DNA from: Spinacia oleracea
Taxonomy: Eukaryota > Streptophyta > Magnoliopsida > Caryophyllales > Amaranthaceae
Direction: 5' to 3'
Assembly (NCBI RefSeq): GCF_020520425.1
Contig: NC_079492.1
Span: forward strand, 2,108,001-2,172,000
DNA length: 64,000 nt
Part shown: positions 19,761 through 62,014 of the stretch, piece after piece
Layout: every line of letters starts with the position of its first letter
Position numbering within the stretch: position 1 is the stretch's first letter
Program-made: the position numbers and the translations under genes
Notes under the pieces: generated by a model
Databases searched by the model: none
What the model was told of the DNA's origin: nothing
The model's input: only the letters and a program-made list of their open reading frames with translations

Positions 19761-19826
19761 GAATGTTTTTCCCTGATCTTGAAATTCCATTTTCTGTTGT
19801 GTGTTCAGAAGTTTTGATATAAAGAT

Positions 19827-22480
19827 ATGAGAGGAGGAGGGCTATGGCAGCTTGGGCAATCAATCACCAGGCGTCTTGCACAGGCTGATAAGAAAGTTGT
19901 TGGTCGTCGATGTTTTTCAAGTGAAGGAGATCTCAAAAAGACAGCACTTTATGACTTCCATGTTGCAAATGGTGGGAAGATGGTCCCTTTTGCTGGTTGG
20001 GGAATGCCAATTCAATATAAGGACTCAATAATGGATTCTACTGTCAATTGTAGAGAGAATGGAAGTCTTTTTGATGTCGCTCACATGTGTGGTTTGAGCC
20101 TTAAGGGGAAGGATTGCATTCCTTTCCTCGAAAAACTTGTTGTTGGTGATATTGCTGGACTTGCCCCTGGCACTGGAACCTTATCGGTTTTCACAAATGA
20201 GAAGGGTGGAGCAATTGATGATACTGTGATCACCAAGGTGACGGATGATCACATATATTTGGTTGTGAATGCGGGTTGCAGAGATAAGGATCTGGCACAT
20301 ATTGAGGAGCATATGAAGGCGTTCAAGTCTAAAGGTGGTGATGTCTCATGGCATATCCATGACGAGAGATCTCTTATTGCCTTGCAGGTTTATACTTTGA
20401 TCCGTCATTTCTTTGTTTTACAATTGATTACCCTCCTTGAAAGAGTTATATGCTCTATGTCCTTTTGTTACCCTATATTCACCATTATAGCTGTATAACC
20501 TTAAGGCTCCGTTTGGTTTGGTGTAAAACGTTTTCAGTGGAAAATGGTTATTCATGTAAAACATTTTCCAAGGAAAAACGCAATTTCAAACTAGTTTTCC
20601 TTTGTTTGGTTCATTAAAAGAAAATGTGAGAAGATGGTGAAGATTAAGGGGGAAAAGGGAGGGGGAGATAAGGAGGAAAAGGTGGAAAAGTGGTTTCCTT
20701 CCCTTCCAAATGAAAAAAGGGTTTTTCAACTTTGAGGAAGTTATTGAAAATTATTTTTCATCTCTTGCAAAACCAAACAACGTAAAATGAATGAAAAGGG
20801 GAAAATCGTTTTCCATGAAAATGTTTTACACCCACCAAGCAAAGCCTAAGAGTAGGTACTCCATATAATACTTGGAGATTGATTATTATTGTTTTCTTCA
20901 TCTCTCCGAGTTTTCACCTCCACGTGCAAAATGTGTCAGACTGATAAACAGATTGTAGTCTGTATCAATATTTCTTAGTTTGATTTGGTCAGCTGTGCTG
21001 TGGAAGGTGATGAGGGATGCTGACCCTCTTAACCTGCTGCTATTTCTAAGACTAAAACCCTCTTAATCTGTGGAAGGGGGATGCTGACCCTTGGATTACA
21101 CATTTGGTGGAAACAAATTTTTGGTATTTCAGTTTTGGACATCACTTTATTTGGAGGATGAAAATTCTCTTCAACTGTCGTATATCTGTTAGTTTATTGT
21201 TCAAATCGCAATGTAATTATATTTACTCTTCATGATTTATTGATGATTTCTCTCAAGGTTTCCAATATTGTTATCCTTCCCCTGTGCAGCAAATAATGAA
21301 CCTTATGTGAATGCGTTTTTGTCAGGGTCCCCTTGCTGCTCCCGTTCTTCAACATTTGACCAAGTATGATCTAAGCAAGTTTTACTTTGGAGAATTTTGT
21401 ATGACTGATGTCAGTGGATTCCCCTGCTATCTCACTAGAACAGGGTATGATCCTCCCTCTTCCATTCCGTGCGTTGTGTGTAATTTACGAACTGCGTCTG
21501 TTATAATCTAATGGATTCCTTTGGTAGAAGCTTGTGGCAACATAATTAGACAATTGCACGTTTTATACCTTGAATATTTCGGTGTCTTGCATGCTTGATG
21601 GGCAATCGGTAGAACAAAAAATATATGTGATTTTAAACTGTAAAAATGTTTTTAAACCGTAAAAATGTGCTTTAAAACCGTTAAAATGTGCTTTTAACCC
21701 GTAAAAATGTGTTTTTAACTCAGTTGCATGTAGAGCTACATACAACCAGGTGCACCTTCTAATTTGTGTCTGATGGGACTTGTTTAAGCTTGTGTTCTCC
21801 CACTTCCTGCTTTTACAGTTCTATTTATTCAATTGCTCAACTCTAACATACACAGAATACCTAATGAATTGGGTATTGAATTACTTTTCCTAGAATATCC
21901 TTTTGACATGAAAGTTTTGTATTTAATTTTTAGATACACTGGTGAAGACGGGTTTGAAATTTCAGTCCCCGATGAGCATGCAGTAGACCTTACAAAGCAA
22001 ATCTTGGAGAAATCCGAAGGAAAGATAAGACTTACAGGGCTAGGTGCACGAGACAGTTTAAGGCTCGAGGCAGGATTATGTCTATATGGAAACGATCTCG
22101 AACAGCATATTACACCCGTTGAAGCGGGTCTAACATGGGCTATCGGAAAAAGGAGGAGGGCAGAAGGCAACTTCCTCGGTGCAGAAATCATCCTCAAACA
22201 AATTGCTGACGGTCCGAAAATAAGGCGTGCGGGATTTATTTCTTCGGGGCCACCTGCTAGAGGTCACAGCGAAATTCAGAACGAAAAGGGTGAAAACATT
22301 GGTGAAATTACTAGTGGTGGATTCAGTCCTTGCCTTAAGAAGAACATAGCCATGGGTTATGTGAAGTCTGGTAACCATAAGGCAGGCACTAAGGTTAGCA
22401 TTTTGGTAAGGGGAAAGCCTTATGAAGGAGTTGTTACTAAAATGCCCTTTGTGCCCACAAAATACTTCAAGCCAACTTAA
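19827..22480 (+). CDS. GDCST: Aminomethyltransferase, T-protein of the mitochondrial glycine cleavage system
   Basis: T-protein takes the aminomethyl group held on lipoylated H-protein and, with tetrahydrofolate, makes methylene-THF and ammonia, the photorespiratory glycine step in the mitochondrial matrix. Three coding exons join in phase: 19827-20387, 21326-21444 and 21934-22480, giving 408 residues, the usual plant length. Residues 1-30 ([20 protein letters not shown], then RRCFSS) are a typical mitochondrial presequence. The GGAIDD motif holds the Asp region that contacts folate (D131/D132). The [11 protein letters not shown] motif follows residue 227, with a split Gly codon at the exon 2/3 border. 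[19 protein letters not shown] and the C-terminal barrel (KMPFVPTKY) are intact. The leader intron and intron 1 each carry a miniature transposon. The gene converges on the succinyltransferase gene, with about 0.9 kb between stops. Confidence 0.95.
20502..20849. mobile_element. hAT-like miniature element, family M copy 1 (T-protein intron 1)
   Basis: Inverted ends TTAAGGCTCCGTTTGGTTTG and (inverted) CTTAGGCTTTGCTTGG, each followed by GTGTAAAACRTTTTC. The interior is shared over most of its length with 54960-55262 (words such as AAGTGGTTTCCTTC, TTGCAAAACCAAACAAC and AAAAGGGGAAAATCGTTTTC). Confidence 0.8.
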
Positions 22481-34800: not shown

Positions 34801-36244
34801 TTTGCGTTACGATTAGATCGTTTTGAATGTTTAATTTGAAAATTTCAGTTCACGTAATTTTAATTAATTTTAAAATTAATAATTTAAATTAATTTCTTGG
34901 ATTTTAATTTTGAATATTATAATTATAATAAATGGAATTTATTCTAATTATTTTACTAAAATTAAAATCATGAATTAATTTAAATGCGACTGAAATTAAA
35001 TTAAATTTTGGATTCAATTATAAATTTATATGAGCTTTAAATTTTAATTAAATTTGTATGTTTCCGGTTAGACTAGAAATACAATTTTATGTTTAAAATT
35101 AGTAAAGCATATGAATTTATTGGTTTGAGTGGGAGCGCTTTTTAGTCATAAACTCTTGATTAGGTCTACAAATCCTTAAGGTTAAAACAACTCGATTAGA
35201 ATTAATAAGGACTGAATAATTGGTAGATTATTGGTGCCCTTGATTAATTGCTGCAAATGTTTACGTGATGCATAATGTGTTTTACTAACCAGCTATGTGG
35301 GCCATTCATGATAATGAATGGGTGAATGGTATATATTATATATGTACTGTTTTGCAGGTTATGAAGTGACTAGTATGGCCCAAATAGGATAGAAAATATG
35401 GTCTGCGTACCATTAATTTGAATGTAATTGGTCTAAAGCACCAAAGTTATTTTTCAATTCAAATATGGTCTGCGTACCATCAAATAGTTGTAATTAGTTA
35501 TAGCTTATCCTATTTGAAGAAAATGGTGCCTCCCACGGAGATTTTCAAGACGGACTTTGAAGTCAAAGCTTCAAGATGAAGTCGGGCCATACTAGATCAC
35601 AAATATCTTATGCATGTTTTAAGTTATTTATTGTTTTAAATATGTCTTAAAATGCATGAGATCATAAGCTTGATTATGTTGCATGATTAAGGATTTTAGT
35701 TCACTTAAAATCTAACCAACATAGTAAGAGCCTTAAGTTCCAAACCTAAAAATTGAGTTAAAAGGTGCCATGCCAAAATATACACTTGCTTGGATATCCT
35801 TTACATCAATCTAGTAATAGTTTTCGCTCAGCGAGGTGTTACTTATTGGTCCTAAAGGGGCAAGGTACACAAATAATTGTGAGTACATGTTAGTTTTGGT
35901 GAAACTCAACGATATAAGTAAGGAGTCCTTTTATGTCGTGGCAAATTCGATAGGTTTACCTAATAAGTTCTTAGACGTACCTATCAACCAAGAATAGTTT
36001 CTAGACTATTAGCAAAAGGCTTTTGCTTACCTAAGATGTTCTAGGATTAAGTCGACAAACTGTGCTTAGTTCTTCAATGATTTTAGGATCTTGGAATCAT
36101 TTTATTCACACCTGCCGGAACACATAACTTGAATAAAATGCTTAATAAACATTGAATTATGCATGTATGCTAGAATTTAAGTTTATTAAGAGAAACTGTG
36201 AATGGTTATTTATTTGTTTATTCTTTTCAATTGTAGTTTTTAAT

Positions 36245-39200
36245 ATGGCAAACAACAATTCATTCAACATTCGATCAATTCTCGAAAAGGAGAAGTTGAA
36301 CGGGAAAAACTTCCTTGACTGGCAAAGGAACTTGCAAATAGTTCTTATGCAGGAAGAAAAGGAGTATGTCCTGGATGAGGCGATGCCCGAAGCTCCTGGC
36401 GACGGGGTCACTCAGGCTGCCCTCAATCGTTGGATTGATGCCAACAAGGATGTGAAATGTCTAATGCTCGCCACCATGAGTGCGGATCTGCAGAAAACGT
36501 TCATCAACTCAGATGCTTTCACAATCATCAGTGAGTTGAAGAACATGTTCCAAGATCTGGCTCGAGTCGAAAGATTCGAGACTCATAGGCAAATTCTTGA
36601 GACCAAGCTTAAGAAAGGCGAGCCCGTAAGTCCACATGTTCTCAAAATGATTGGACTCATTGAGAATATGAGTCGGCTGGATCAGCAATTTTCTCAGGAA
36701 ATGGCTATAGACACCATCCTCCATTCTCTTCATAGCGGGTATGATCAGTTCAAACTGAACTACAGTATGAATAGTCTGGACAAAACGCTCACTGAGCTTC
36801 ACGGTATGCTGAAGACCGCTGAAAAGACGCTCAAAAGTGATAAGCAGGATGTGCTTATGGTGCGTGGGGGCAAGTTCAAGAAATCTGGAAAGAAGAGGAA
36901 TGCTAAGAAAGGTGGCAACAAGGCCAGCCCAACTAAGCAAACTGGCGCCAAATCTGCAAAGAGGAAGGTCAGTCAACCCACTTCTGAATCCGAATGCTTC
37001 TACTGCAAGAAGAAGGGGCATTGGAAGAGAGATTGCTTGAAGCTAAAGGAAGATCTGAAGAACGGAACAGTCGTTCCATCTTCAGGTATTTTCGTTATAG
37101 ACTGTATACTTGCTAATTCAACTTCTTGGGTATTAGATACAGGTTGTGGCTCACACTTATGTTCCAATCCACAGGGACTAAGAAGAAGTAGAAAGTTAAG
37201 CAAGGGTGAAGTCGACCTACGAGTGGGAAATGGAGCACGGATTGCTGCATTAGCTGTAGGAACTTACTATTTGTCGTTGCCCTCCGGGCTAGTTTTGGAA
37301 CTGGAAGAATGTTTCCATGTTCCAAGTCTTACTAAAAACATCATTTCAGTTTCTTGCTTAGATGCTAAGGGATTTTCCTTTATAATAAAAGACAATAGTT
37401 GTTCGTTTTATTTTAAAGAGATGTTTTATGGATCTGCTAGATTAGTCAATGGACTTTATTTATTAGATCACGACAAACAAGTATATAACATAAATACCAA
37501 AAAGGCCAAAAAGGATGATTCAGATCTCACCTATCTGTGGCATTGTCGATTAGGCCATATAAACTTGAAACGCTTAGAAAGACTTCAAAGGGAAGGAATT
37601 CTAGAACCATTTGACTTAGAGGATTATGGTAAATGCGAATCATGTTTACTTGGCAAAATGACAAAGCAACCTTTCTCTAAAGTTGGAGAAAGAGCAAATG
37701 AACTATTGGGTTTAATCCATACAGATGTATGTGGACCAATGAGTACAAATGCTAGAGGTGGTTTCAGCTACTTTATCACTTTCACTGATGACTTCAGTAG
37801 GTATGGTTATGTCTACCTAATGAAGCATAAGTCTGAATCCTTTGACAAATTCAAGGAATTTCAGAGTGAAGTAGAGAATCAATTAGGCAAGAAGATTAAG
37901 GCACTGCGGTCTGATAGAGGCGGTGAATATCTGAGCTATGAATTTGATGACCATCTGAAAGAATGTGGAATTCTATCAGAATTGACTCCTCCTGGAACAC
38001 CACAATGGAACGGTGTGTCAGAACGGAGGAACAGAACCTTGCTAGACATGGTCAGGTCAATGATGGGTCAGGCCGAACTTCCATTAGAATTTTGGGGACA
38101 TGCACTAAATACAGCTGCACTCACTATAAATAGAGCTCCGTCTAAAGCTGTCGAAAAGACTCCATACGAATTATGGTTTGGAAAGCCTCCAAATGTGTCT
38201 TTTCTTAAGATTTGGGGATGTGAAGTATACGTCAAACGATTAATTTCAGACAAACTTCATCCAAAATCTGACAAATGTATCCTTGTGGGCTATCCAAAGG
38301 AAACAAAGGGGTATTACTTCTACAATACATCTGAGAACAAAGTGTTTGTTGCTCGAGATGGTGTCTTTTTGGAGAAGGATCACATTTCCAAAATGACAAG
38401 TGGGAGAAAAGTAGACCTCGAAGAAATTCGAGTCGAACAACAAACTCTAGAGAATGCTCAAGATGACATTCAGGATGAAACTCAGAGATCTTTAGAAGTA
38501 TCTGGTGAGAATCATGGTCAATCTAGAAATGTTACCCCGCGTAGATCGCAAAGATATAGATCTCAACCGGAAAGGTACTTAGGTATTTTGACGAACGAGA
38601 GCTATGACGTTCTATTACTTGAAAGTGATGAACCTGCGACTTACAAGCAAGCTATGACGAGCCCTAGCTCCAAGCAGTGGCAAGAAGCCATGCAATCTGA
38701 ATTAGACTCCATGTCTGAAAACCAAGTATGGGATTTGGTCGATTTGCCAGATGGCTACCAAGCCATTGGAAGCAAATGGGTTTTCAAACTGAAAAAGGAC
38801 AAGGATGGGAAACTTGAAGTTTTCAAAGCTAGATTGGTTGCAAAAGGTTACAGGCAAGTCCACGGTGTGGATTACGATGAAACCTTTTCACCAGTTGCAA
38901 TGCTAAAGTCTATTCGAATAATGTTAGCAATCGCTGCATATTACGATTACGAAATATGGCAGATGGATGTCAAAACTGCTTTCTTAAACGGCGTTTTAAC
39001 AGAAACTGTGTTTATGACACAGCCTGAAGGTTTTGAGGATCCAAAGAATGCTAAAAAGGTATGCAAGCTAAAGAAGTCAATCTACGGATTGAAGCAGGCA
39101 TCCAGGAGCTGGAATATACGTTTTGATGAAGCAGTCAGTGACTTTGGTTTCATCAAGAACGCAGACGAATCTTGTGTATACAAGAAGGTCAGTGGGAGAA

Positions 39201-40210
39201 AAATTGCTTTCCTAGTATTATATGTCGACGACATATTGCTTATCGGAAATGACATTCCTATGTTGAACTCTGTCAAGATTTGGCTTGGGAAATGTTTTTC
39301 GATGAAGGATCTAGGAGAAGCACAGTACATATTGGGCATCAAGATTTACAGAGATAGATCTAAAAAGATGATTGGACTTAGTCAAAGCACTTATATCAAT
39401 AAGGTGCTTGATAGGTTCAAGATGGCGGACTCCAAGCGAGGCTACCTACCCATGTCTCATGGAATGACTCTAAGCAAGACTCAGTGCCCAAAAACACTTG
39501 ATGAGCGTAGACGAATGAATGGGATTCCATATGCATCATTGATTGGTTCAATAATGTATGCTATGATATGTACACGCCCGGATGTTGCGTACGCACTCAG
39601 TGCTACGAGCAGATACCAGTCAGACCCAGGAGAGGCGCATTGGACTGCTGCCAAGAACATTCTGAAGTACCTGAAAAGGCACAAAGATGACTTCCTGGTC
39701 TATGGTGGAGATGATGAATTAATTGTTAAAGGCTATACGGACGCAAGTTTCCAAACCGACAAAGATGATTTCAGATCACAGTCTGGGTTTGTCTTCTGCC
39801 TCAACGGAGGAGCAGTAAGTTGGAAAAGTGCTAAGCAAAGCACCATTGCGGATTCTACAACTGAAGCGGAGTACATTGCTGCACATGAAGCAGCAAAGGA
39901 AGCTATATGGCTAAGGAAGTTCATAGGATAACTTGGTGTAGTCCCCTCCATTAAAGGACCAATAGCCCTGTATTGTGATAATAACGGAGCTATTGCACAG
40001 GCAAAAGAGCCTAGACACCACCAGAGAGTCAAGCATGTACTTCGTAGATTTCACCTTCTACGAGAGTTCGTTGAAAGAAAAGAAGTCGAGATAAGCAAAA
40101 TTGGAACTGATGACAACATATCAGATCCATTAACTAAACCTCTGCCGCAAGCGAAGCACAACTCGCACACTGCAGCTATGGGAATCAAGCATATTGGAGA
40201 ATGGCTTTGA
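36245..40210 (+). mobile_element. gag-pol coding region of the copia element (fossil)
   Basis: Starts at an ATG encoding MANNNSFNIRS. Visible parts in order: a gag domain (about the first 250 codons), a zinc knuckle (CFYCKKKGHWKRDC), an aspartic protease (WVLDTGCGSHLC), the integrase zinc-binding and core region (HCRLGHIN, then DRGGEY and ERRNRTLLDM), reverse transcriptase (QMDVKTAFLNG, YVDDILL), and RNase H (a DASFQTDKDD-type motif). The region looks almost intact, with about one break. Confidence 0.95.
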
Positions 40211-43607: not shown

Positions 43608-44967
43608 TAGGGGTGTTAACGAGCCGAACCGAGACCGAACTTAGGCAGGCTCGGCTCGAGCTCGAAACTCTTGAGCATAGGCTCGGCTCGAGCTCGAAGC
43701 TCGACGAGCCTGAAAAATTGAGTTCGAGCTCGAGCTCGAAACAAGGCTCGACTCGGCTCAAAACTCAACGAGCCTATAAAATCTCAAGAATGAAACTCAA
43801 CGAGCTTATAAAAGCTCGATATTGAATCTTGTACACTGCTCAGCTCAATTGCTAAAGCTAGCTTAAATTGTCAATTCAGCCCAACTAAAATTATAAGGCC
43901 CAAATTGTTGCATTTTAAGCAAGGAGATAACTTGTAAGCGCATTTTTATTTTATAACTTCTCATTTATTTTGCTTTAAGATATCCAACCGATGTGGGACA
44001 AGTTAATTTATTTTTTTAACCATCTCTAGAATATCAGGCATATTACTCCAATTCATTATACTTTTTGCTATATTTAGAGGTAATTAAACCAAAAAAATAA
44101 GCAAATTTAGAGGTAATTAAACCATAATATGCAATCAAAAATCGCTTCTTTCGCTAGGTTACACCCAAACTACCCGGTTGCTCGCTGGAACAAAAGAACA
44201 TGGTTAGTGATTTTGTACCTTAATTCAGATGTTGGATGCAGTTTTCCAAATCATTGAAAGGTCTTCTTTTTATACTGGGTATAGCCATACAGGGGCTCAA
44301 AAACACTCCAAGTGAATGTAATGATGTACTCCGTACGAAGTTGGTTATGCTAGCTAATGATATTCGTACAATACTTGATGAGGAAATTGTCCATTTTAGG
44401 ACTACTATCGAGGACAAGCAGCAAGAGACAAAAAGAATACATTGCCTAGTTTATGAATGCTCATGTGCCAAAGGATGAAGTAGACACTTGGCTAGAAGAT
44501 ATGCAAATATGTGTCTTCACTGTATTTGGTATCTCTATACCAGCATATTATCGTGAGATGTATCAGGAGAGGGGAAAATAGTGGGGGAGCTTAATTAAAG
44601 AACTAAGGTTGTAGTTCCTAAGATATATCAATTCATATTACACTCATGTAGTAAAATAAATGAGTCGCTCCTCTATTAGTAATAGTGTTATGTTAATGTT
44701 GGTGTCCTTATATATTCCGAAAAACTTTCCAACATATGTACATCCACCAATGTGGGACTCCAAATCACAAAATATTTTAGACTATAAAGAAAGTCGAGCT
44801 TGTTCACGAGCTTTCGAGCCGAGCCAAGGATAGCTCGGGCTTGGCTCGTTAAGATCTCGAGCCGAACTCGAACTCGAGTCGAGCCCACTCGAGCCGAGCT
44901 TTGGCCGAGTTTTGTCGAGCCGAGTATCGAGTAGTTCACGAGCAGGCTCAGCTCATTAACACCCCTA
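43608..44967. mobile_element. Non-autonomous hAT element with 8-bp target duplication
   Basis: The ends TAGGGGTGTTAACGAGCC and (inverted) TAGGGGTGTTAATGAGCTGA are terminal inverted repeats. They are flanked by the perfect 8-base duplication ATCGTAGG (43600-43607 and 44968-44975), diagnostic of hAT transposition. The subterminal zones are full of CTCGAGC and GGCTCG words, usual for hAT transposase binding. No transposase is encoded. The centre (44220-44600) has a gene-like piece with DIRTILDEEIVHFRTTIEDK and, in another frame, KDEVDTWLEDMQ, perhaps captured host sequence. Confidence 0.85.
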
Positions 44968-45398
44968 ATCGTAGGCCGTGTGCCGCATTTTTTAGTAAAG
45001 CATGATAAGGCACCACCTGACTCAACCCGACAAGACAAAACACGCTTAATTTAGTAAAATTAGGCTTAGGCACGACTGCCCGTGGGACTAGATCGGACCC
45101 TATTTTACAACTGCTGACCCGATCCACCACGACACGATAAATAATGGGCTTGGCCCATCCCGGAAAGAGGCCTGGCCCGATCCAGCCCACAGCCACCTTT
45201 AGGTAACACGGGCTAGAAACTTAGAATGGTTCAGAATCTGACGGCCTAATGTGTTTCCGGAATTCCGGGCTTTGCCGGTTTGTTCCCTCCTTCCAAACAA
45301 ATAAAAATCTTTTTATTTTTATTTTATTTTTATTTTATTTTTATAGTCACTCATCTTTTTACAGTTTTAGCGTCAAGCTTCACTCTCCCGGTCTCCCC

Positions 45399-45408
45399 TA
45401 ACCCTAAC
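45399..45408 (+). promoter_or_regulatory. Telo-box-like CCTAACCCTAAC before the IBB exon ATG
   Basis: A CCCTAACCCTAAC word lies directly before the ATG at 45412. Telo-boxes (AAACCCTAA) are known leader elements of plant ribosomal and translation genes, which fits a ribosome-export gene such as NMD3. Confidence 0.4.
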
Positions 45409-45411
45409 ACA

Positions 45412-45600
45412 ATGACGGAAACTCGACGTGGTAATCGCTCGAAATCATATAAGCTTACGAATGATTTTGGCGAATCTCGAGCTAAACGATCATCCAAATT
45501 TATGGAGATAAGAAGGCTCAAGAGGGAGGATTTATATCTGCGGAAACGTAATTTCGAGTATTTCAATGGCGATTCTTCTCAAATCATGCAAAATAAACTG
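45412..45600 (+). CDS. Exon encoding an importin-beta-binding (IBB) domain
   Basis: Sixty-three codons from ATG 45412 to a good donor (AAACTG|GTAAAC). The product RRGNRSKSYKLTNDFGESRA then KRSSKFMEIRRLKREDLYLR then KRNFE matches the importin-alpha IBB pattern: basic start, YK, acidic/basic middle, and (V/M)EIRK-KRE--L-KR. IBB domains bind importin-beta to bring proteins into the nucleus. No armadillo repeats follow in the next 900 bases. The next clear exon, in phase, is NMD3 at 46537. An optional in-phase 38-codon exon (45946-46059, product FSDRTLKLIGDEKLRTIDKH...) lies between them. This exon may be the N-terminus of an IBB-NMD3 fusion, the remains of an importin-alpha gene, or a separate tiny gene. 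Confidence 0.6.
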
Positions 45601-46536
45601 GTAAACAATTATACTAGTAGTCATTTTAATTTGGTTACTAAATTGTTTAATTGATTTTTAGGATTTATGCTAATTATGATAATAATCGGAAATTAAATTG
45701 TCGAATTGATTTGTTTAATCGATTTTTTAGGATTCATGCTAATCAGTTTTGTTTGTAAAGCACTACGTATAATTTATTGTAGTATGCCAAAATTGGTAGG
45801 AATAATTTTGTTTTGTAAAATTTTGGCACTTCATAAGAAAATTAAGCAGATTTTGTGTTATATTTGGTACACTTGTAACAAAATCATCGTTTTTGTAAGG
45901 ACTAATTATCACGTTGATTGTGTAATCTGAACTAATAGTAATGAGTTTTCTGATCGAACCCTAAAATTAATCGGGGATGAGAAGTTGAGAACGATTGACA
46001 AACATGTACGGATTGTATTTTGGCGAAATCATAGTGAACCCTTGATTATGGAGCTTGAGGTAATGCAGAAATTATTTGGAACCAGACGGGGCATAAAATG
46101 AATACAATACAGCTGGTTGAATTGCCTGAGTTTGGTTTGATACTTTGATATACCCCTAATTCTTTGCTCTATTTGGTTTTTTCCGGTCTCTAAGACGTGA
46201 CTTAAACGTAAATATTTTGGATTCTATACGCGTAAAAATTATAAAAAGTTATACTTTGGAACGAGTCTAACAAGATTCACATGACTATATTATCTCTTAT
46301 ACGCTATTGAGAATTCACGGTCAAAGTTTTAAAAGTTTGACAAAAAAATGTAATGGGGCAGACATTTAGGGGGGAGTATGAAACACAATACTTGCTAGAG
46401 TATAAGCTGACAATTTAGAAATAGATTGATATTTGCCTGATTACATGGCAAGTATGAATTTTCTTTGGCTTTTTAGCAAAGTTTGTGGGTCTTTTCATAA
46501 AGTATGAAGTGTAATTCATTCACTTTTATCTTTCAG

Positions 46537-48045
46537 ATGACAAAATCAGGAGCTAGTCAAGAACTGAGCTGCTTGCTAGCGGGGAATCTGACAATTAGTC
46601 AAATATTGTGTTCCATATGTGGTACTGCAACTCCTCCAAACAACGTAAACATGTGTCCGAACTGTCTATGTTTGAAAATCCCCATTACGAGTGATCTACC
46701 AAGTCGTGTCAGCATTGTACATTGCCCGGATTGTGTAACCTACTTGCAGCCTCCATCAACTTGGTTAAGAGCCGAAAGAGACTCCAAGGAGTTGCTATCA
46801 TTTTGTCTCAAAACACTGAAAAAATTAGCTGAATTTCGGTTGATTGATGCAAAATTCTTGTTGACAGAACCTCGTTCTAGGAGGAGGATGATAAAGCTGC
46901 GGGTTAAAGTTCAAAGAGAAGTCCTTGATCGAGTATATGTTGAGAAATCCCACGACATTGAGTATGTTGTTGTCCATCAAAGGTGTCCATCTTGTTGTAT
47001 GGCATTGCCATTGCCAGCAAACCCTGATCATTGGGAAGCAGTTGTTCAAGCTAGGCAATATGTCCCTCATATGCGCACATTCTTATACCTAGAGGACCTT
47101 ATTAAAAAACACTCAGCAGCAAATTCAGCAGTGAGACTTAAACGGGTAAACCAAGGTCTTGATTTCTTCTTTGCTAAGAAGCGTGATGCTGTGAAATTCT
47201 TCGAGTTCATGTGTAGTGTTGTTCCTGTGAAATCACAAACCTTTCACAAAACAGCTTTCACAAGATTTAGCATGGCTGCAGTTATAAGCCCTATTTGCCA
47301 CGATGATCTTATTTATATCTCGCCTAAGCTGCTCTCTTCCAAATTAGGACAGATTGGTCCTCTTGTGATCTGCACAAAAGTGAAGAACACAATCACTTTG
47401 TTGAATCCTTTCACATTGGTTGATTGTGTTATTGATGGAGATCAGTATTGGAGAGCGCCTTTTGAACCTATATTAAGTAGTAAGCAGCTAATCGAGTATA
47501 TTGTATTGGATGTTGTTATGATTGTTTCTGCTGAAGTTGACAACAACAGCAAGAGAAACACGTTGGCGGATGTTGAAATTGCGAGGGTGTCAGATTTCGG
47601 AAAGAATGACAGAATCATTTCGGTAAGAACACATCTCGGTCATCTTTTGAAGACTGGTGATCATGCTCTCGGTTATGACTTAGATGGAGCGAATTTTAAC
47701 AACGCCGAAGCAGAAGAGAACAGAGGTTTGTTTCCATCCGCAGTTCTGATAAAGAAAAAGTTCTCTGATGATGATAACTGGCAGGAGAAGAAGACTTTGA
47801 AAAAAGCTTGTTCGAAGAAGAAGACTAATAATAATAATGATTCAGAGTATGAACAGTTTCTTAGAGATTTGGAGGACGACCCTGGAAAAAGGTTTAATAT
47901 ATCGTTGGATACGAGTGTCGAAGATGAATGTTCACATAAGGTGGAGTCTACTGCAACCGGTGCAGATGCAGTGCCGTTTAGCCAATTGGAAGATGTTTTT
48001 GCTGATCTGGATTTGAGCGATGGTTGCATCACTGATGCAGAGTAG
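46537..48045 (+). CDS. NMD3: Divergent NMD3, adaptor for nuclear export of 60S ribosomal subunits
   Basis: NMD3 binds the 60S subunit in the nucleus and links it to the exportin CRM1. This exon encodes 502 residues from ATG 46537, which lies directly after an AG acceptor (TATCTTTCAG|ATG). Zinc-binding pairs are present: CSICGTA with MCPNC, HCPDCVTYLQPPSTW, and RCPSC. The central domain keeps NPDHWEA, ARQYVPHMRTFLYLEDLI, VNQGLDFFF, GPLVICTKV and GDHALGYDLDGAN. The C-terminus keeps SEYEQFLRDLEDDP and FNISLD, a Lys-rich stretch and a leucine-rich export-type tail (LEDVFADLDLSD). Many positions differ from plant NMD3 as I remember it, so it looks like a fast-evolving or duplicated copy. The open frame extends 11 codons upstream of the acceptor, but that part is intron. 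No break was seen, so it is probably functional. Confidence 0.92.
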   Translation: MTKSGASQELSCLLAGNLTISQILCSICGTATPPNNVNMCPNCLCLKIPITSDLPSRVSIVHCPDCVTYLQPPSTWLRAERDSKELLSFCLKTLKKLAEFRLIDAKFLLTEPRSRRRMIKLRVKVQREVLDRVYVEKSHDIEYVVVHQRCPSCCMALPLPANPDHWEAVVQARQYVPHMRTFLYLEDLIKKHSAANSAVRLKRVNQGLDFFFAKKRDAVKFFEFMCSVVPVKSQTFHKTAFTRFSMAAVISPICHDDLIYISPKLLSSKLGQIGPLVICTKVKNTITLLNPFTLVDCVIDGDQYWRAPFEPILSSKQLIEYIVLDVVMIVSAEVDNNSKRNTLADVEIARVSDFGKNDRIISVRTHLGHLLKTGDHALGYDLDGANFNNAEAEENRGLFPSAVLIKKKFSDDDNWQEKKTLKKACSKKKTNNNNDSEYEQFLRDLEDDPGKRFNISLDTSVEDECSHKVESTATGADAVPFSQLEDVFADLDLSDGCITDAE

Positions 48046-49889: not shown

Positions 49890-51140
49890 TTAAAAGAGCT
49901 TGCTTGCAAACTCATCTACTGAACCTTCATTTCTTCTTGATTTCTCAGCAAAATCCCTGAGTTCAGACAGGCTTCTACCCAAATGCAAAGCCATCTTCAA
50001 CTCAAAAACCTCTCCATTTTCTCTTTTCCCTAAATCTTCCTCATTTAAGGTAGACTCAACAGTCTCTTCCAACAACTTAAAAAAACCAGCACAATTCCTG
50101 TACATCTCAAACACCATTCCTACTTGTCCACCATGTTCTACGGTGTTCACCGCAGCAGCCATGGACCCCGCCACCGCCGCCACAAGTCCGCCCCACTGCC
50201 CACCACCAGCGGCTCCAACAGCCGCAATGCCGGTCAAAAGTGGGCCCGAGACAGCCAACATTTTGCTCAACTTCAATGCCTTGTTTCCTAACCTAATATA
50301 ATCCTCAATATCCCTTGTCTTTGTCACCCCTACAATTTCCCTTACATTATCCTCCAACTCCCTAGTCCACCCATTTCGGTCACAATGTTTATGTTTTGGT
50401 GAAGAAGAAGATGATTGTTTCATAGACGGCCACCATACAGCAGGCTGTAAACTCTCGGGGTATTTATCAATCATAGCCCCTAAAAGAGGTAAAGGGTACG
50501 CCCTATCCAAAGCCAACACCTTCGCCATCGCCACCTCGACATCTTCCCGACTCGGTTTTCTGACAGAAAGAGTGGTCTGAATGTTATTCTGAAGTCTCTT
50601 GAAAAGTCTGACAGCATTCCTTTGTTCCTCAACTAACTGAGAAGGTTGAATCTTGTTCATTACTAAAAGTAATCCTGTACCCGCTACAAAGAGTAAAGTT
50701 GAAGACACCTTCAACCCGAACCCGTTTGACGACCCACTAGCTTCGGCTAGACCCGCCATTGTAACCGCGGTTAAGGTGATCATGTTAACAGAGTTCAACA
50801 ACAAGGAGTTCCAATTCTCGCGTTGATCACCGATGTTTTGGTGCATTTCAATCCTATCACTAACAGATTCTAAGATTGTATACAGTTTGATTGTTTCAAT
50901 TGAGGTTTTCGCGGTGGCGGAGGTGGTGGTGGTGGTGGTGGATTTTGGTTCTCTTAATGGGAGATTAGTAGTAAGCTTATTAAGCTCCTCAATGAGTTGC
51001 TGTTTTTGAACATGATTTGGTAGTTTTGGGACTGTGATTTTGGGGTACCTAAAGTATTTTGGACCACTAATTGAACTTGTTATGCTAATTTTGCTTGAAG
51101 ATGATGATAACAAAGATGTGGAATTTTGTAAAGAAACCAT
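49890..51140 (-). CDS. At4g22030-family protein (annotated 'probable F-box'), copy 1
   Basis: Single-exon gene for 416 residues. The frame extends upstream, but the first good start is MVSLQNSTSLL at 51140, which gives the family's Ser-rich N-terminus. Family landmarks: IEMHQNIGDQRENWNSLLLN (about 97-116), a hydrophobic NMITLTAVTMAGLA, STLLFVAGTGLLLVMNKIQP (147-166), QLVEEQRNAV, VLALDRAYPLPLLG (208-221) and PAVWWP. A second small-residue-rich hydrophobic region follows (GGLVAAVAGSMAAAVNTVEHGGQ). The database name 'probable F-box' is from memory; I see no F-box. Two hydrophobic segments and a transit-like N-terminus suggest an organelle membrane association, which is inference. A TATA-like TATAAATAC lies about 75 bases upstream. 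Its paralogue is at 60722. Confidence 0.88.
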   Translation of the reverse strand: MVSLQNSTSLLSSSSSKISITSSISGPKYFRYPKITVPKLPNHVQKQQLIEELNKLTTNLPLREPKSTTTTTTSATAKTSIETIKLYTILESVSDRIEMHQNIGDQRENWNSLLLNSVNMITLTAVTMAGLAEASGSSNGFGLKVSSTLLFVAGTGLLLVMNKIQPSQLVEEQRNAVRLFKRLQNNIQTTLSVRKPSREDVEVAMAKVLALDRAYPLPLLGAMIDKYPESLQPAVWWPSMKQSSSSSPKHKHCDRNGWTRELEDNVREIVGVTKTRDIEDYIRLGNKALKLSKMLAVSGPLLTGIAAVGAAGGGQWGGLVAAVAGSMAAAVNTVEHGGQVGMVFEMYRNCAGFFKLLEETVESTLNEEDLGKRENGEVFELKMALHLGRSLSELRDFAEKSRRNEGSVDEFASKLF

Positions 51141-51212
51141 TTTTTTTGCTCTGTATTTTGTGGGTTTGTTGAAAAATTGTGAATATGGTAGAATGGTTGT
51201 TGGGGTTGTTAA

Positions 51213-51221
51213 GTATTTATA
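51213..51221 (-). promoter_or_regulatory. Likely TATA box of the 416-residue paralogue
   Basis: TATAAATAC on the minus strand, about 75 bases before the ATG at 51140. Confidence 0.45.
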
Positions 51222-51299
51222 CTTGTTTAAAACCACACAAAAAAAAAAAAAAAACAAAAAAACTTGGTCAACTTTGAAAATGTTGACTGATTTGTAAGT

Positions 51300-53740
51300 T
51301 TTTTTTGTTTTTGAGATTTTGACTTGGCCGTTTGAGGTAAAGGGTTAGACTTTTTCATGGTTTGCATACTAAACCAAAACTATTCAACTATTCAAAGTTC
51401 AATATTGGTGTAGTAAAATTCGACCATGTACTTTGATTAATTACCACTTAACCACCATAGCTTAATTAGGTCGTATGTTTGACATTTTAGTGCTTAATTA
51501 GAATGGAATTATAGAATGCCATGTCACCGATTTCAAAGATTTAACTAGTAGGAATAAATTTTAGGAGGTCTATATTTGACAGGTTAGTGCTTTATTAGCA
51601 TGGATTGCAGTCTTATAAAATGCCATGTCTTTTTTTTTTGACATCGGATAAACATTAAAAAGTTCACGAATTACAACTGATACTAAAACTACTTAAACTT
51701 TGGGGGCCGATCAAGACTCTTACACATCCAAAGCTACTAAAAATGTCATGTCAATGATGTTTAGAGAATTAGAGATTCAACTAGTAGGAACGAAATTAAG
51801 CAAAGTGTTAAAAGGGCGAATATATAACAATAAAAAAGTGTATGAGTTTACTAGGGTAGGAGAAATTACATATTTTGTACTCCGTATTTAATACTCTTTC
51901 TTGATAGGGTTGGCTCGTACAACTTTTTACAGTCCGTTCTTATAGAATACCAGTAGTTTTTTAGTACTTGGTCAATTCTCGGGGTTTTCTCCCTAAATTT
52001 GTTACTTATTTGATTATAAAATCTACTAAAATGCCCTATATATATATGGTTATATATGCATGTCAAAGACCCAAACCATAACAAAGAATGTAAAAGACCC
52101 AAACCACACTCATCTTTCTATCACCCCTCAGTCCCTCATCCTTTCTCTTCACCTACTAAACACACTATACTACAATAAGTATTAGAAAAAAGTAACAAAA
52201 CTTTTTTCTCTCATTCTTTTTCCATTTTCTTTGTATTTTCATACTCAACAACTCATGTAACTAAGAGTTAGCATGAAATTAACTGATATATTTACCTAAC
52301 AAATGAATAAATTAACCGATATAAAACAAAAATAACTATTGTATAAATCGGTAATTTCTTTGTCATAGGATTTGGGCAGCACACATGTTATTGTAGGCCC
52401 TAATATAAGCACATTTCATTATTTCAACCTTCCACATATGAACAGGGTATTTCTGAGTATTTCTTTCATGTTTTTTCTAAGCATTATCTCAAACATGAGT
52501 TTAACACATTTTCTATGTCTATCAACTTCTCATGTGAACATCATCATCTAGGTTTAGCTGTTTAGGCTAAAGCTATTTCCCTAATGTAAGGAATCTATTA
52601 GCCATTCAGTAGGTACCCAGGAGAGCACGTTGTCACGTGTTGACATTTTTCCGATGCTAAGTCTCAGCATGTCTCATATGAGGCGAGGCGCGCAACTCCC
52701 ATGAGCATGTGTGTCTTTACTGATACATGTATCTTGCTGCAGGTTAGTATCATTACGTGTTGTGCATATAGGATAGGCTGGCGTGGATCAAGCTTGGGGA
52801 TTCAGACGTCGCGCATAAAGTCAAAAGGCCCGTCCGTGACAACGTAATGTAATAACAACAAACCCGCAACCTTATAAGAGAATTTGTAAGAGAGATCGCT
52901 TTGTTTTTGTCAAAATTTCGGTATTTTGAGTAATTTTTGGGAAAAAAATCATCTTCTATCATTTCCACATAATTTCGAACATGTAGTCCTAGACACTCTT
53001 GCATAGTTTAATACTCACTGCCCTTTTTCAACGGTGCCGCGGACGGTTTAGGTAGGAACGCCAAAAAAGAGATCCCATAATTAGTTAACATAAACGACTA
53101 GTGTAAATGCAGTACTAAACACAATCACAACTACACCTTAATAGTACTATCCGTACATATAATTACACTCTGCCAATAAAGCAGAAAGAATGTTTATATT
53201 TGATTATTGACTCTTGCTTCTTCTAACCGACATTTTACACACAAAAAAAAAAAAAAACTGTTGCGGTATTAAGTCTGAACTCTAAACTATCCTTTTCAGA
53301 TAAAATAAGTTCAGATAAGTTCAGATAATATAAGTCAAGTTCAGATAAGTCGAATAGAAATGGAGAATAAACCTACACTGGGCGCCTAGGCATGATAACA
53401 AACTGAGCAGAGCCAAGCTCGAACTTGACAAGGCGCCTTTTTGACAAACAAATAACATGTTCGAAACTGTAGTAATCAATTCAATGAGCAATCAAATAAC
53501 AATGCTTTATTGTTCGCTTTCTTGCATTAAGATGATTGAATAGAGACTACAAGCAGATTTATAAGTTACAGAAGTATAAGAGATATGGCTAATCGAAATA
53601 CTGCAATTCAACTTCATGTTCAATATACTAATAACTATATGATAGGATAGTAGGATAGCCCTGATTCTGCTTGCAGTAAGTGCTTCTTCCTAGTGGATGG
53701 CGGCTTATTATAGTGAAGAACTAGATACAACGCGACTTTA
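51300..53740. other. Gene-free AT-rich intergenic region
   Basis: No supported gene. AT-rich, with simple TATATA runs near 52036. Around 53300-53350 there are repeated CAGATAAGTT words that recur at 57370-57620. Open frames are short and without splice context. Confidence 0.5.
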
Positions 53741-60562: not shown

Positions 60563-60721
60563 GTTTAACGCCACAAACTGAATTAACAAACTCCATCCTC
60601 ACATTATATTTCTCCTCTTAACAAGCCTAAAATCAAACCATCATCAAACATTCAATTCAATTCAACAAAACCAAAATCTTTGATCCATCATATATTAATT
60701 ACAATTTACAACCTAGCTTCA

Positions 60722-62014
60722 ATGACTACATTGCAATCTTTGTCAAAGGGTTCGATATCAACATTTAGATTGGACCATATCACACAGTCTTATTTTGTTC
60801 GTTCCATGAATAATCATGCTGGTCTCCAAATTAAATCCGCCATATCAATTCCAAAGTTACCAAACTTTAAGCATTTGAAAGAGTTGAATATGTCCAATAT
60901 TGCTACCAATACCCTCTTTAAGAAAAACACAAAAACAACAATAATCCCAAAAGAAGTTGTTATTAGTCATGATAATGAGGATCATAGTGATCATCATGCA
61001 ACATTGGAAACCATTAAACTACATGTGGTTTTGGAAGCCGTATTAGATAGAATAGAGATGCACCATAACATTGGTGAGCAACGTGAGAATTGGAACTCTT
61101 TATTGTTGAACTCCCTCAACATGATCACCCTAACCGCCGCCACCATGGCCGGTATGGTAGGGTTTTCCGGCGAGCATCATTCCTTAGGGTTAAACGTAGC
61201 TTCAACCCTACTCTTTGCTGCGGGGACCGGAATCCTTTTGATAATGAACAAGATCCAGCCTTCTCAACTAGTCGAGGAGCAAAGGAACGCGGTAAGGCAT
61301 CTAAAGCAACTCAAAAACAAGATCCAAATGATTATTTCTCTCCGGCCACCAGCACAAGAAGACGTGGAGGCGGCCGTGGAGGAGGTTTTAGCCCTAGATA
61401 GAGCATACCCTCTTCCTCTCCTAGGGTCCATGCTTGAAAAGTTTCCCAATACTTTCAAGCCCGCCGTGTGGTGGCCCGCAGAAAAACCTGGAAATATCAA
61501 TGCTCCAAAAGAAAACTTGGTTGTCAAGAAAGGGGTAGTGAATAATGGATGGAGTAAGGAGTTGGAGGAAGAAATGAAGCAAATTGTTGGAGTAATAGAT
61601 AGGAGGGATATAGAAGATTATGTTAAACTAGGGAATAAAGCATTGAAGTTTAACAAAACCCTAGCCAAGTGTGGCCCGTTGTTAATGGGTGTCGCCACCG
61701 TAGGAGCGGCTTTCGGTGGGCCGTGGGGAGGGCTCGTGGCGGCCGTAGCGGGGTCCACAGCTAGTGTGGTGAATAGCATAGAGCATGGTGGACAAGTAGG
61801 GATGGTGTTTGAGATGTATAGGAATTGTGGTGGAGCTTTTAAGTTGTTGGAAGAGACAATTGAGTCAAACTTAGAAGAGAAAGATTTAGAGAAGAGGGAA
61901 AATGGTGAGTTGTTTGAGATGAAAGTGGCTTTGCATTTGGGAAGGAGTTTGTCTGAGCTTAGAGATTTTGCGGCCTCTAGTCCCAAAGGTGAATTTGCAA
62001 GCAAGCTTATTTAA
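60722..62014 (+). CDS. At4g22030-family protein (annotated 'probable F-box'), copy 2
   Basis: Single-exon gene for 430 residues, starting MTTLQSLSKGSISTF. The frame runs 14 codons further upstream without a better start. It keeps all the landmarks of the copy at 51140-49890: IEMHHNIGEQRENWNSLLLN, NMITLTAATMAGMVGFSG, LLFAAGTGILLIMNKIQPSQ, EEQRNAV, LALDRAYPLPLLGSM, PAVWWP, DIEDYVKLGNKALKFNK, a GGPWGGLVAAVAGSTA hydrophobic patch, GGQVGMVFEMYRNCGGAFKL, and the C-terminal ALHLGRSLSELRDFA with FASKL at the end. The N-terminal 85 residues differ strongly from copy 1, including a His/Asp-rich HDNEDHSDHH. The conserved C-terminal FASKL resembles but is not at a peroxisomal SKL terminus. Function unknown; the F-box label is doubtful. 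Confidence 0.88.
   Translation: MTTLQSLSKGSISTFRLDHITQSYFVRSMNNHAGLQIKSAISIPKLPNFKHLKELNMSNIATNTLFKKNTKTTIIPKEVVISHDNEDHSDHHATLETIKLHVVLEAVLDRIEMHHNIGEQRENWNSLLLNSLNMITLTAATMAGMVGFSGEHHSLGLNVASTLLFAAGTGILLIMNKIQPSQLVEEQRNAVRHLKQLKNKIQMIISLRPPAQEDVEAAVEEVLALDRAYPLPLLGSMLEKFPNTFKPAVWWPAEKPGNINAPKENLVVKKGVVNNGWSKELEEEMKQIVGVIDRRDIEDYVKLGNKALKFNKTLAKCGPLLMGVATVGAAFGGPWGGLVAAVAGSTASVVNSIEHGGQVGMVFEMYRNCGGAFKLLEETIESNLEEKDLEKRENGELFEMKVALHLGRSLSELRDFAASSPKGEFASKLI

Follow-up and report, generated by a model that had tools for sequence, protein, structure and literature searches.

A candidate fusion of an importin-beta-binding exon to a divergent copy of the ribosome-export adaptor NMD3 in spinach

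The importin-beta-binding (IBB) domain is known chiefly from dedicated import adaptors. In PMC13034042 and PMC5425277, the IBB domain is that of importin-alpha, and truncations of this IBB that lose Arg13, Lys18 or both were found to severely abrogate importin-beta binding (PMC9396022). According to PMC2929220, the divergent IBB of KPNA7 still binds importin-beta, and strongly. On the side of ribosome export, a nuclear localization signal (NLS) at residues 396-428 and nuclear export signals (NESs) at residues 453-472 and 481-500 were described for AtNMD3 (PMC3338764). The present analysis concerns a locus where these two protein families seem to meet, within a 64-kb stretch of the spinach assembly (C6:2108001-2172000, hereafter the window, in which all coordinates lacking a contig name are counted). 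There, positions 45412-48045 of the forward strand most likely constitute, on a modest balance of the evidence, one two-exon gene encoding a 565-residue IBB-NMD3 chimera (63 + 502 residues joined by a phase-0 splice), which would enter the nucleus by importin-beta and leave it by CRM1.

In this gene model, exon 1 (45412..45600, +) carries 63 codons with an IBB domain homologous to importin-alpha exon 1, as recognized by Pfam, shuffled alignments, tblastn and AlphaFold2; a candidate GT...AG intron in phase 0 at both ends, read from the sequence, spans 45601..46536 (+); and exon 2 (46537..48045, +) comprises 502 codons and a stop and encodes a divergent yet intact NMD3, here NMD3b, identified by Pfam and alignment. 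An earlier note on this DNA had proposed such a fusion: its domain call stands and the fusion is retained as the best-supported gene model for the interval, while an optional exon that it had placed between the two was discarded and its splice donor turned out not to be the sole candidate. If exon 1 is spliced to NMD3b as predicted, the IBB helix would bind importin-beta in the cytoplasm without importin-alpha, RanGTP would free the importin-beta-bound protein inside the nucleus, the NMD3 body would bind pre-60S subunits, and the C-terminal NES would recruit CRM1/RanGTP for export. In other words, NMD3b may recruit importin-beta directly, in a shuttling cycle resembling that of snurportin.

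The IBB exon and its kinship to importin-alpha exon 1

The identity of the 63-codon exon was confirmed by the Pfam profile PF01749, which matched it with 28.4 bits against a cut-off of 23.8 (E-value 2.4e-6), the match covering residues 9-50 and only profile positions 1-43 of 89. When the whole genome was searched in six frames with this profile (894,210,420 bases in 242 contigs, as in all whole-genome searches), exon 1 reached 30 bits (E 5.1e-4) and ranked fourth behind three importin-alpha first exons, with the cut-off passed by 4 places among the 11 matches listed (12 candidates scored). Exon 1 was also aligned locally to exon 1 of the three importin-alpha loci of the same genome (L021, L022 and L023), with 1000 shuffles per reference. 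The scores obtained were 95, 80 and 74, with shuffle maxima of 56, 57 and 54, so that none of the 1000 shuffles was as good in any case. Additionally, the open reading frames (ORFs) of the three importin-alphas matched exon 1 by tblastn with E-values from 3.5e-6 to 1.9e-5. Searches with exon 1 as a single sequence were weaker than the profile, the best other place in the genome being the C4 importin-alpha (E 0.011, 45% identity) and the best PDB chain being an importin alpha (E 0.095). An AlphaFold2 model built from 4 sequences, which is a weak test of the IBB helix, displayed one helix at residues 9-62, with a block of predicted local distance difference test (pLDDT) values of 80-92 at residues 21-50 and a mean of 70.2.

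Several of the residues expected from an IBB are retained in exon 1. The motif RSKSYK holds the equivalents of importin-alpha Arg13 and Lys18 (its R and last K), placed by the R-x4-K spacing of KPNA2. Moreover, alignment with the importin-alphas demonstrated that the helix keeps the pattern E-I-R-R-L-K-R-E-D...R-K-R.

The kinship extends to the end of the exon. The best importin-alpha match of exon 1 is the copy at C4:6.30 Mb, and the exon end ...SSQIMQNKL/GT aligns with the end of exon 1 of this copy, ...VSQNMEKK/GT (slashes mark exon-intron junctions), the GT being in phase 0 in all four genes compared. This coincidence points to an origin from a real, spliced exon, and exon 1, including its phase-0 end, is on sequence grounds a diverged copy of importin-alpha exon 1. 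The resemblance may even continue upstream of the ATG, since the in-frame stretch at 45391..45411 (+) reads VSPNPNT where the importin-alphas have MSLRPNS/A: adding the codons from 45391 lifts the alignment scores to 108, 94 and 88, and by tblastn the ORFs of all three importin-alphas match from 45391 or 45403 onwards. From this match the original importin Met would seem to have been lost, but the match is short, and CCTAAC/telo-box repeats alone would spell PNPN, so its value is only suggestive. The stretch holds the telo-box that the earlier note had reported before the IBB ATG, which lies at 45400 (AACCCTAA); the window contains 5 occurrences of AACCCTAA/TTAGGGTT in all.

With respect to the divergence of exon 1, synonymous sites are saturated, with proportions of synonymous differences of 0.78, 0.82 and 0.93 in comparison with L021, L022 and L023, respectively, and proportions of nonsynonymous differences of 0.38, 0.34 and 0.43. 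The nonsynonymous divergence (dN) between exon 1 and the importin-alphas amounts to 0.45-0.65, higher than that among the importin-alphas themselves (0.07, 0.25 and 0.26). The frame contains no stop and no frameshift, but two alignment gaps were observed, one after the N-terminal RR and the other in the linker. In a neutral simulation of all 74 differences to the C4 copy, where the observed alignment was optimised and the simulated alignments were fixed, a design that favours the observed exon, the observed protein score was kept in 0 of 5000 runs, of which 712 remained free of stops. Repeated with the three references, the simulation retained the observed similarity in 0, 0 and 0 of 2000 runs, and in 0, 1 and 0 of 2000 (L021, L022 and L023) when, in a moderate setting, the changes on the importin side were purely synonymous. 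The similarity thus exceeds the neutral-decay expectation, and our reading is that exon 1 was constrained at the protein level over much of its history and clearly accelerated.

The source of the exon was also looked for in the surroundings. No armadillo exon was found within 40-56 kb, where the best match of an importin-locus ORF besides exon 1 had an E-value of 0.069 (46 matches at E<=1), while the same method recovers 13 and 15 ORFs between paralogues at E<=1e-3; nor did Pfam scans of four selected frames return armadillo repeats. A whole or decayed importin-alpha gene around NMD3b was rejected for 40-56 kb, as no remainder was matched. Among the 40 of 279 candidates scored, no second DNA copy of exon 1 was detected in the genome; besides the window itself, these places fall in the intron. 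Capture by segmental duplication was evaluated by comparing window ORFs of at least 50 residues with about 30 kb at the C4 importin-alpha, about 30 kb at the C1 canonical NMD3 and about 10 kb at each of the other three loci, and was rejected: the 19 matches at E<=1e-4 consisted of the NMD3 and IBB genes and of short matches, repeat-like by eye, at 44.7-45.1, 48.3-48.6 and 63.0-63.5 kb and in a copia-like frame.

NMD3b and its junction with the IBB exon

NMD3b, one of three NMD3 loci found in the genome, scores above the Pfam cut-off for all three of its domains (NMD3 158.5, NMD_SH3 43.6 and NMD3_OB 85.1 bits). It is 48% identical to the canonical copy of 516 residues, with dN of 0.42 and a saturated synonymous divergence of about 3.7. 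Human, yeast and the canonical copy agree at 146 positions, of which NMD3b retains 97 and the third copy (L003, NMD3c) 75. Four CxxC pairs, motifs with a zinc role, are kept in NMD3b, starting at C25, C40, C63 and C150. At the place of the canonical NES, a leucine-rich, NES-like LEDVFADLDL (47986..48015, +) aligns with the canonical LDELLAELDI, a sequence match only; by this match, the last of the AtNMD3-type NESs is kept, with the L-x2-V-x3-L-x-L spacing of an NES. The region that matches the canonical NLS by alignment, KKKFSDDDNWQEKKTLKKACSKKKTNNNNDSE (47752..47847, +), is still basic, but the RxWKLK core common to human, yeast and the canonical copy has had its R, W, K and L replaced, so an import signal elsewhere in the protein could be useful. 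The AlphaFold2 model of NMD3b itself (3 sequences) was poor, with pLDDT of 45.4, and was not used.

Regarding the junction, the earlier note had described an exon 1 ending at a good phase-0 donor. The phase-0 GT at 45601 (CTG/GTAAAC) is indeed there, but its quality is middling, with 5 of 8 consensus positions, and among the 11 GTs in 45412-45720 those at 45431 and 45634 tie with it (5/8), the latter also in phase 0. By eye, it does not stand out from 11 donors of importin-alpha genes in the genome, for example AAG/GTGATA and AAG/GTCTAT. On the opposite side, as claimed, the NMD3 ORF opens at a phase-0, acceptor-like AG directly on its ATG (ACTTTTATCTTTCAG/A), with 13 pyrimidines among the 15 positions before CAG, and the phases of the two exons match. 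The ATG at 45412 lies in the context aacacaATGac, presumably a good, plant-like start context, and no earlier ATG was read in 45340-45411; the ATG at 46537 would follow CTG, a poor context by reading. The canonical NMD3 presents an acceptor-like AG, read from the sequence, 14 nt before its ATG, and the apparent 5' untranslated region (5'UTR) intron ending there makes an upstream exon plausible for NMD3b too; the IBB exon lies where the canonical gene appears to have a 5'UTR exon. Telo-boxes also occur in the 5' regions of the canonical NMD3 and L003.

The optional 38-codon exon proposed at 45946-46059 (+) was not upheld. It proved to be merely an open frame, with a poor acceptor tract by eye, a further telo-box occurrence inside it at 45957, no Pfam match at E<=10, and no similarity to importin-alpha beyond that of shuffles, since 899, 924 and 952 of 1000 shuffles scored as well with the three references. 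Its reading as importin-alpha exon 2/3, prompted by an SDDxxLQLE resemblance by eye, was rejected on the same grounds: 899 to 978 of 1000 shuffles were as good for the exon and a longer frame against the two references with those exons.

Some other elements were observed in the vicinity. A dispersed repeat lies inside the candidate intron at about 46154-46380, part of which is matched at 72-79% identity by 38 of 40 scored places (279 candidates). A probable hAT-like DNA element at 43608-44967 ends about 445 bp 5' of the IBB ATG; it has terminal inverted repeats at 43608-43630/44945-44967, 87% complementary, and an identical 8-bp flanking duplication, ATCGTAGG, on which the hAT label rests. Elsewhere in the window, two 'Petal formation-expressed' genes (PF14476), divergently oriented, were recognized at 49890-51344 (-) and 60587-62014 (+), with 482 and 473 bits, as well as a 1260-residue open frame at 36149-39931, by eye a copia-type retrotransposon polyprotein, and exons of a glycine cleavage T-protein gene at 19818-22480, with GCV_T and GCV_T_C in 21788-22477 and the part at 19818-20498 assigned by eye.

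Weighing of the gene model against its alternatives

A number of observations weigh against the IBB-NMD3 gene. The GT at 45548 scores higher than the donor at 45601 (6/8 versus 5/8) and, being in phase 1, would break the frame; an ATG of NMD3b's own stands right at the acceptor; AATAAA at 45592, at the very end of exon 1, is a possible polyadenylation signal; and the 5'UTR intron of the canonical NMD3, on which the model draws, is a reading of the sequence. Exon 1 reads RAKRSS where the importin-alphas of the genome have RRRRED, so that two R of the RRRR run, as well as the ED behind it, are altered. The NLS region of NMD3b is still basic (10 K/R of 32 and net +4; the canonical copy has 14 K/R and net +6), and the IBB may therefore be dispensable for import. 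In the extreme setting of the neutral simulation with synonymous importin-side changes, 73, 33 and 0 of 2000 runs (L021, L022 and L023) retain the similarity, which is only moderate support; the design noted above also favours the observed exon. Finally, L003, a very divergent NMD3 on the minus strand at C1:113.95 Mb that has lost the first two CxxC pairs, is the sister of NMD3b in a five-sequence tree (91/88), on a long branch, and its upstream ORF is not an IBB. This 56-codon basic ORF has a phase-0 GT, and phase-0 AGs precede the NMD3 frame; in comparison with the importin-alphas, 594, 357 and 702 of 1000 shuffles are as good, and 108 of 1000 in comparison with exon 1, so that L003 was rejected as a second IBB-NMD3. 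The comparison with L003 neither confirms nor excludes the IBB join. Each of the two divergent copies may have acquired a coding 5' exon, or in-phase frames of this kind may arise readily.

These observations give room to three other explanations. Two separate transcripts could produce an IBB-only protein able to titrate importin-beta, either of 80 codons, since without splicing the IBB frame stays open beyond the donor up to the stop at 45652-45654, or spliced elsewhere, together with a separate NMD3b that starts at 46537 and has its own 5'UTR exon in 45655-46536. We regard this as unlikely, albeit with an appreciable share of the probability: the ATG at the acceptor, the apparently non-coding 5' exon of the canonical NMD3, as read from its sequence, and AATAAA at 45592 and ATTAAA at 45692, which could serve as polyadenylation signals, speak for it, but exon 1 shares its phase-0 end with importin-alpha exon 1, which points to a donor in use, the ATG at 46537 would have a poor context, and no second promoter or 5' exon was recognised, though none was sought with a dedicated tool. 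Distinctly unlikely, in our assessment, is that the IBB exon persists only as a relic, forming part or all of a 5'UTR or not being transcribed at all, with its frame irrelevant and NMD3b translated from 46537. Such decay would agree with the elevated dN, the apparent loss of the importin Met and the better-scoring, frame-breaking donor at 45548; it is at odds with an IBB signature kept without a stop while synonymous sites became saturated, a similarity that the plain simulation never reproduced and the harshest one reproduced in the numbers given above, and with the fact that the first AUG of an mRNA starting in 45340-45411 would be that of the IBB. Lastly, the fusion could be real and its extension act as an ordinary NLS via importin-alpha, with RRLKRED...LRKRN as a basic bipartite signal, or as a regulator of NMD3-60S binding. 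Consistent with this are the 17 K/R among the 63 residues, the substitution of RRRRED by RAKRSS and the ability of the importin-alpha IBB to bind importin-alpha NLS sites itself (PMC10636164). However, exon 1 has kept the R13/K18 equivalents of the extended moiety together with E-I-R-x-x-K-R-E-D, a degree of retention that an NLS would not require, and we consider this explanation highly improbable.

Comparison with described import and export adaptors

In line with the earlier note, which knew of none, no IBB-NMD3 protein was named in the open-licence papers searched, and the gene, if real, is a new combination of two known domain families. It can be tentatively proposed, with rather less confidence than the gene model itself, that a plant lineage gained a ribosome-export adaptor with both an importin-beta and a CRM1 handle, by capture of importin-alpha exon 1 in place of a 5'UTR exon; importin-alpha would thereby be bypassed, a decayed internal NLS replaced, and a snurportin-like architecture reached independently for ribosomes. 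If this is true, the transfer of an IBB to a ribosome-export factor by exon shuffling would illustrate the one-step origin of a shuttling receptor, offer a natural test of whether the NMD3 import rate limits 60S export, and define a divergent plant NMD3 class beside the canonical gene.

Compared with AtNMD3, human NMD3 and yeast Nmd3, NMD3b shares the NMD3, SH3 and OB domains, the four CxxC pairs and the C-terminal NES, and differs in its candidate N-terminal IBB exon, in retaining 97 of 146 otherwise common positions and in the loss of the NLS-region core. NMD3c is likewise divergent and is preceded by a telo-box and a basic ORF in phase, but this ORF is not an IBB and the first two CxxC pairs are lost. 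In importin-alpha, an IBB exon homologous to exon 1, with the same phase-0 exon end, is followed by armadillo repeats, which were not found here, the cargo-binding part being replaced by NMD3. In the frames submitted to Pfam, only the IBB and NMD3 domains exceeded the cut-off, and no m3G-cap-binding domain was found. The closest analogue in architecture is snurportin 1 (PMC10636164), where an IBB is carried by a specialised ribonucleoprotein adaptor that leaves the nucleus by XPO1/CRM1. Snurportin 1 joins its IBB to an m3G-cap-binding domain and carries an import cargo, whereas IBB-NMD3 would join it to NMD3, a 60S-export module, and carry an export cargo.

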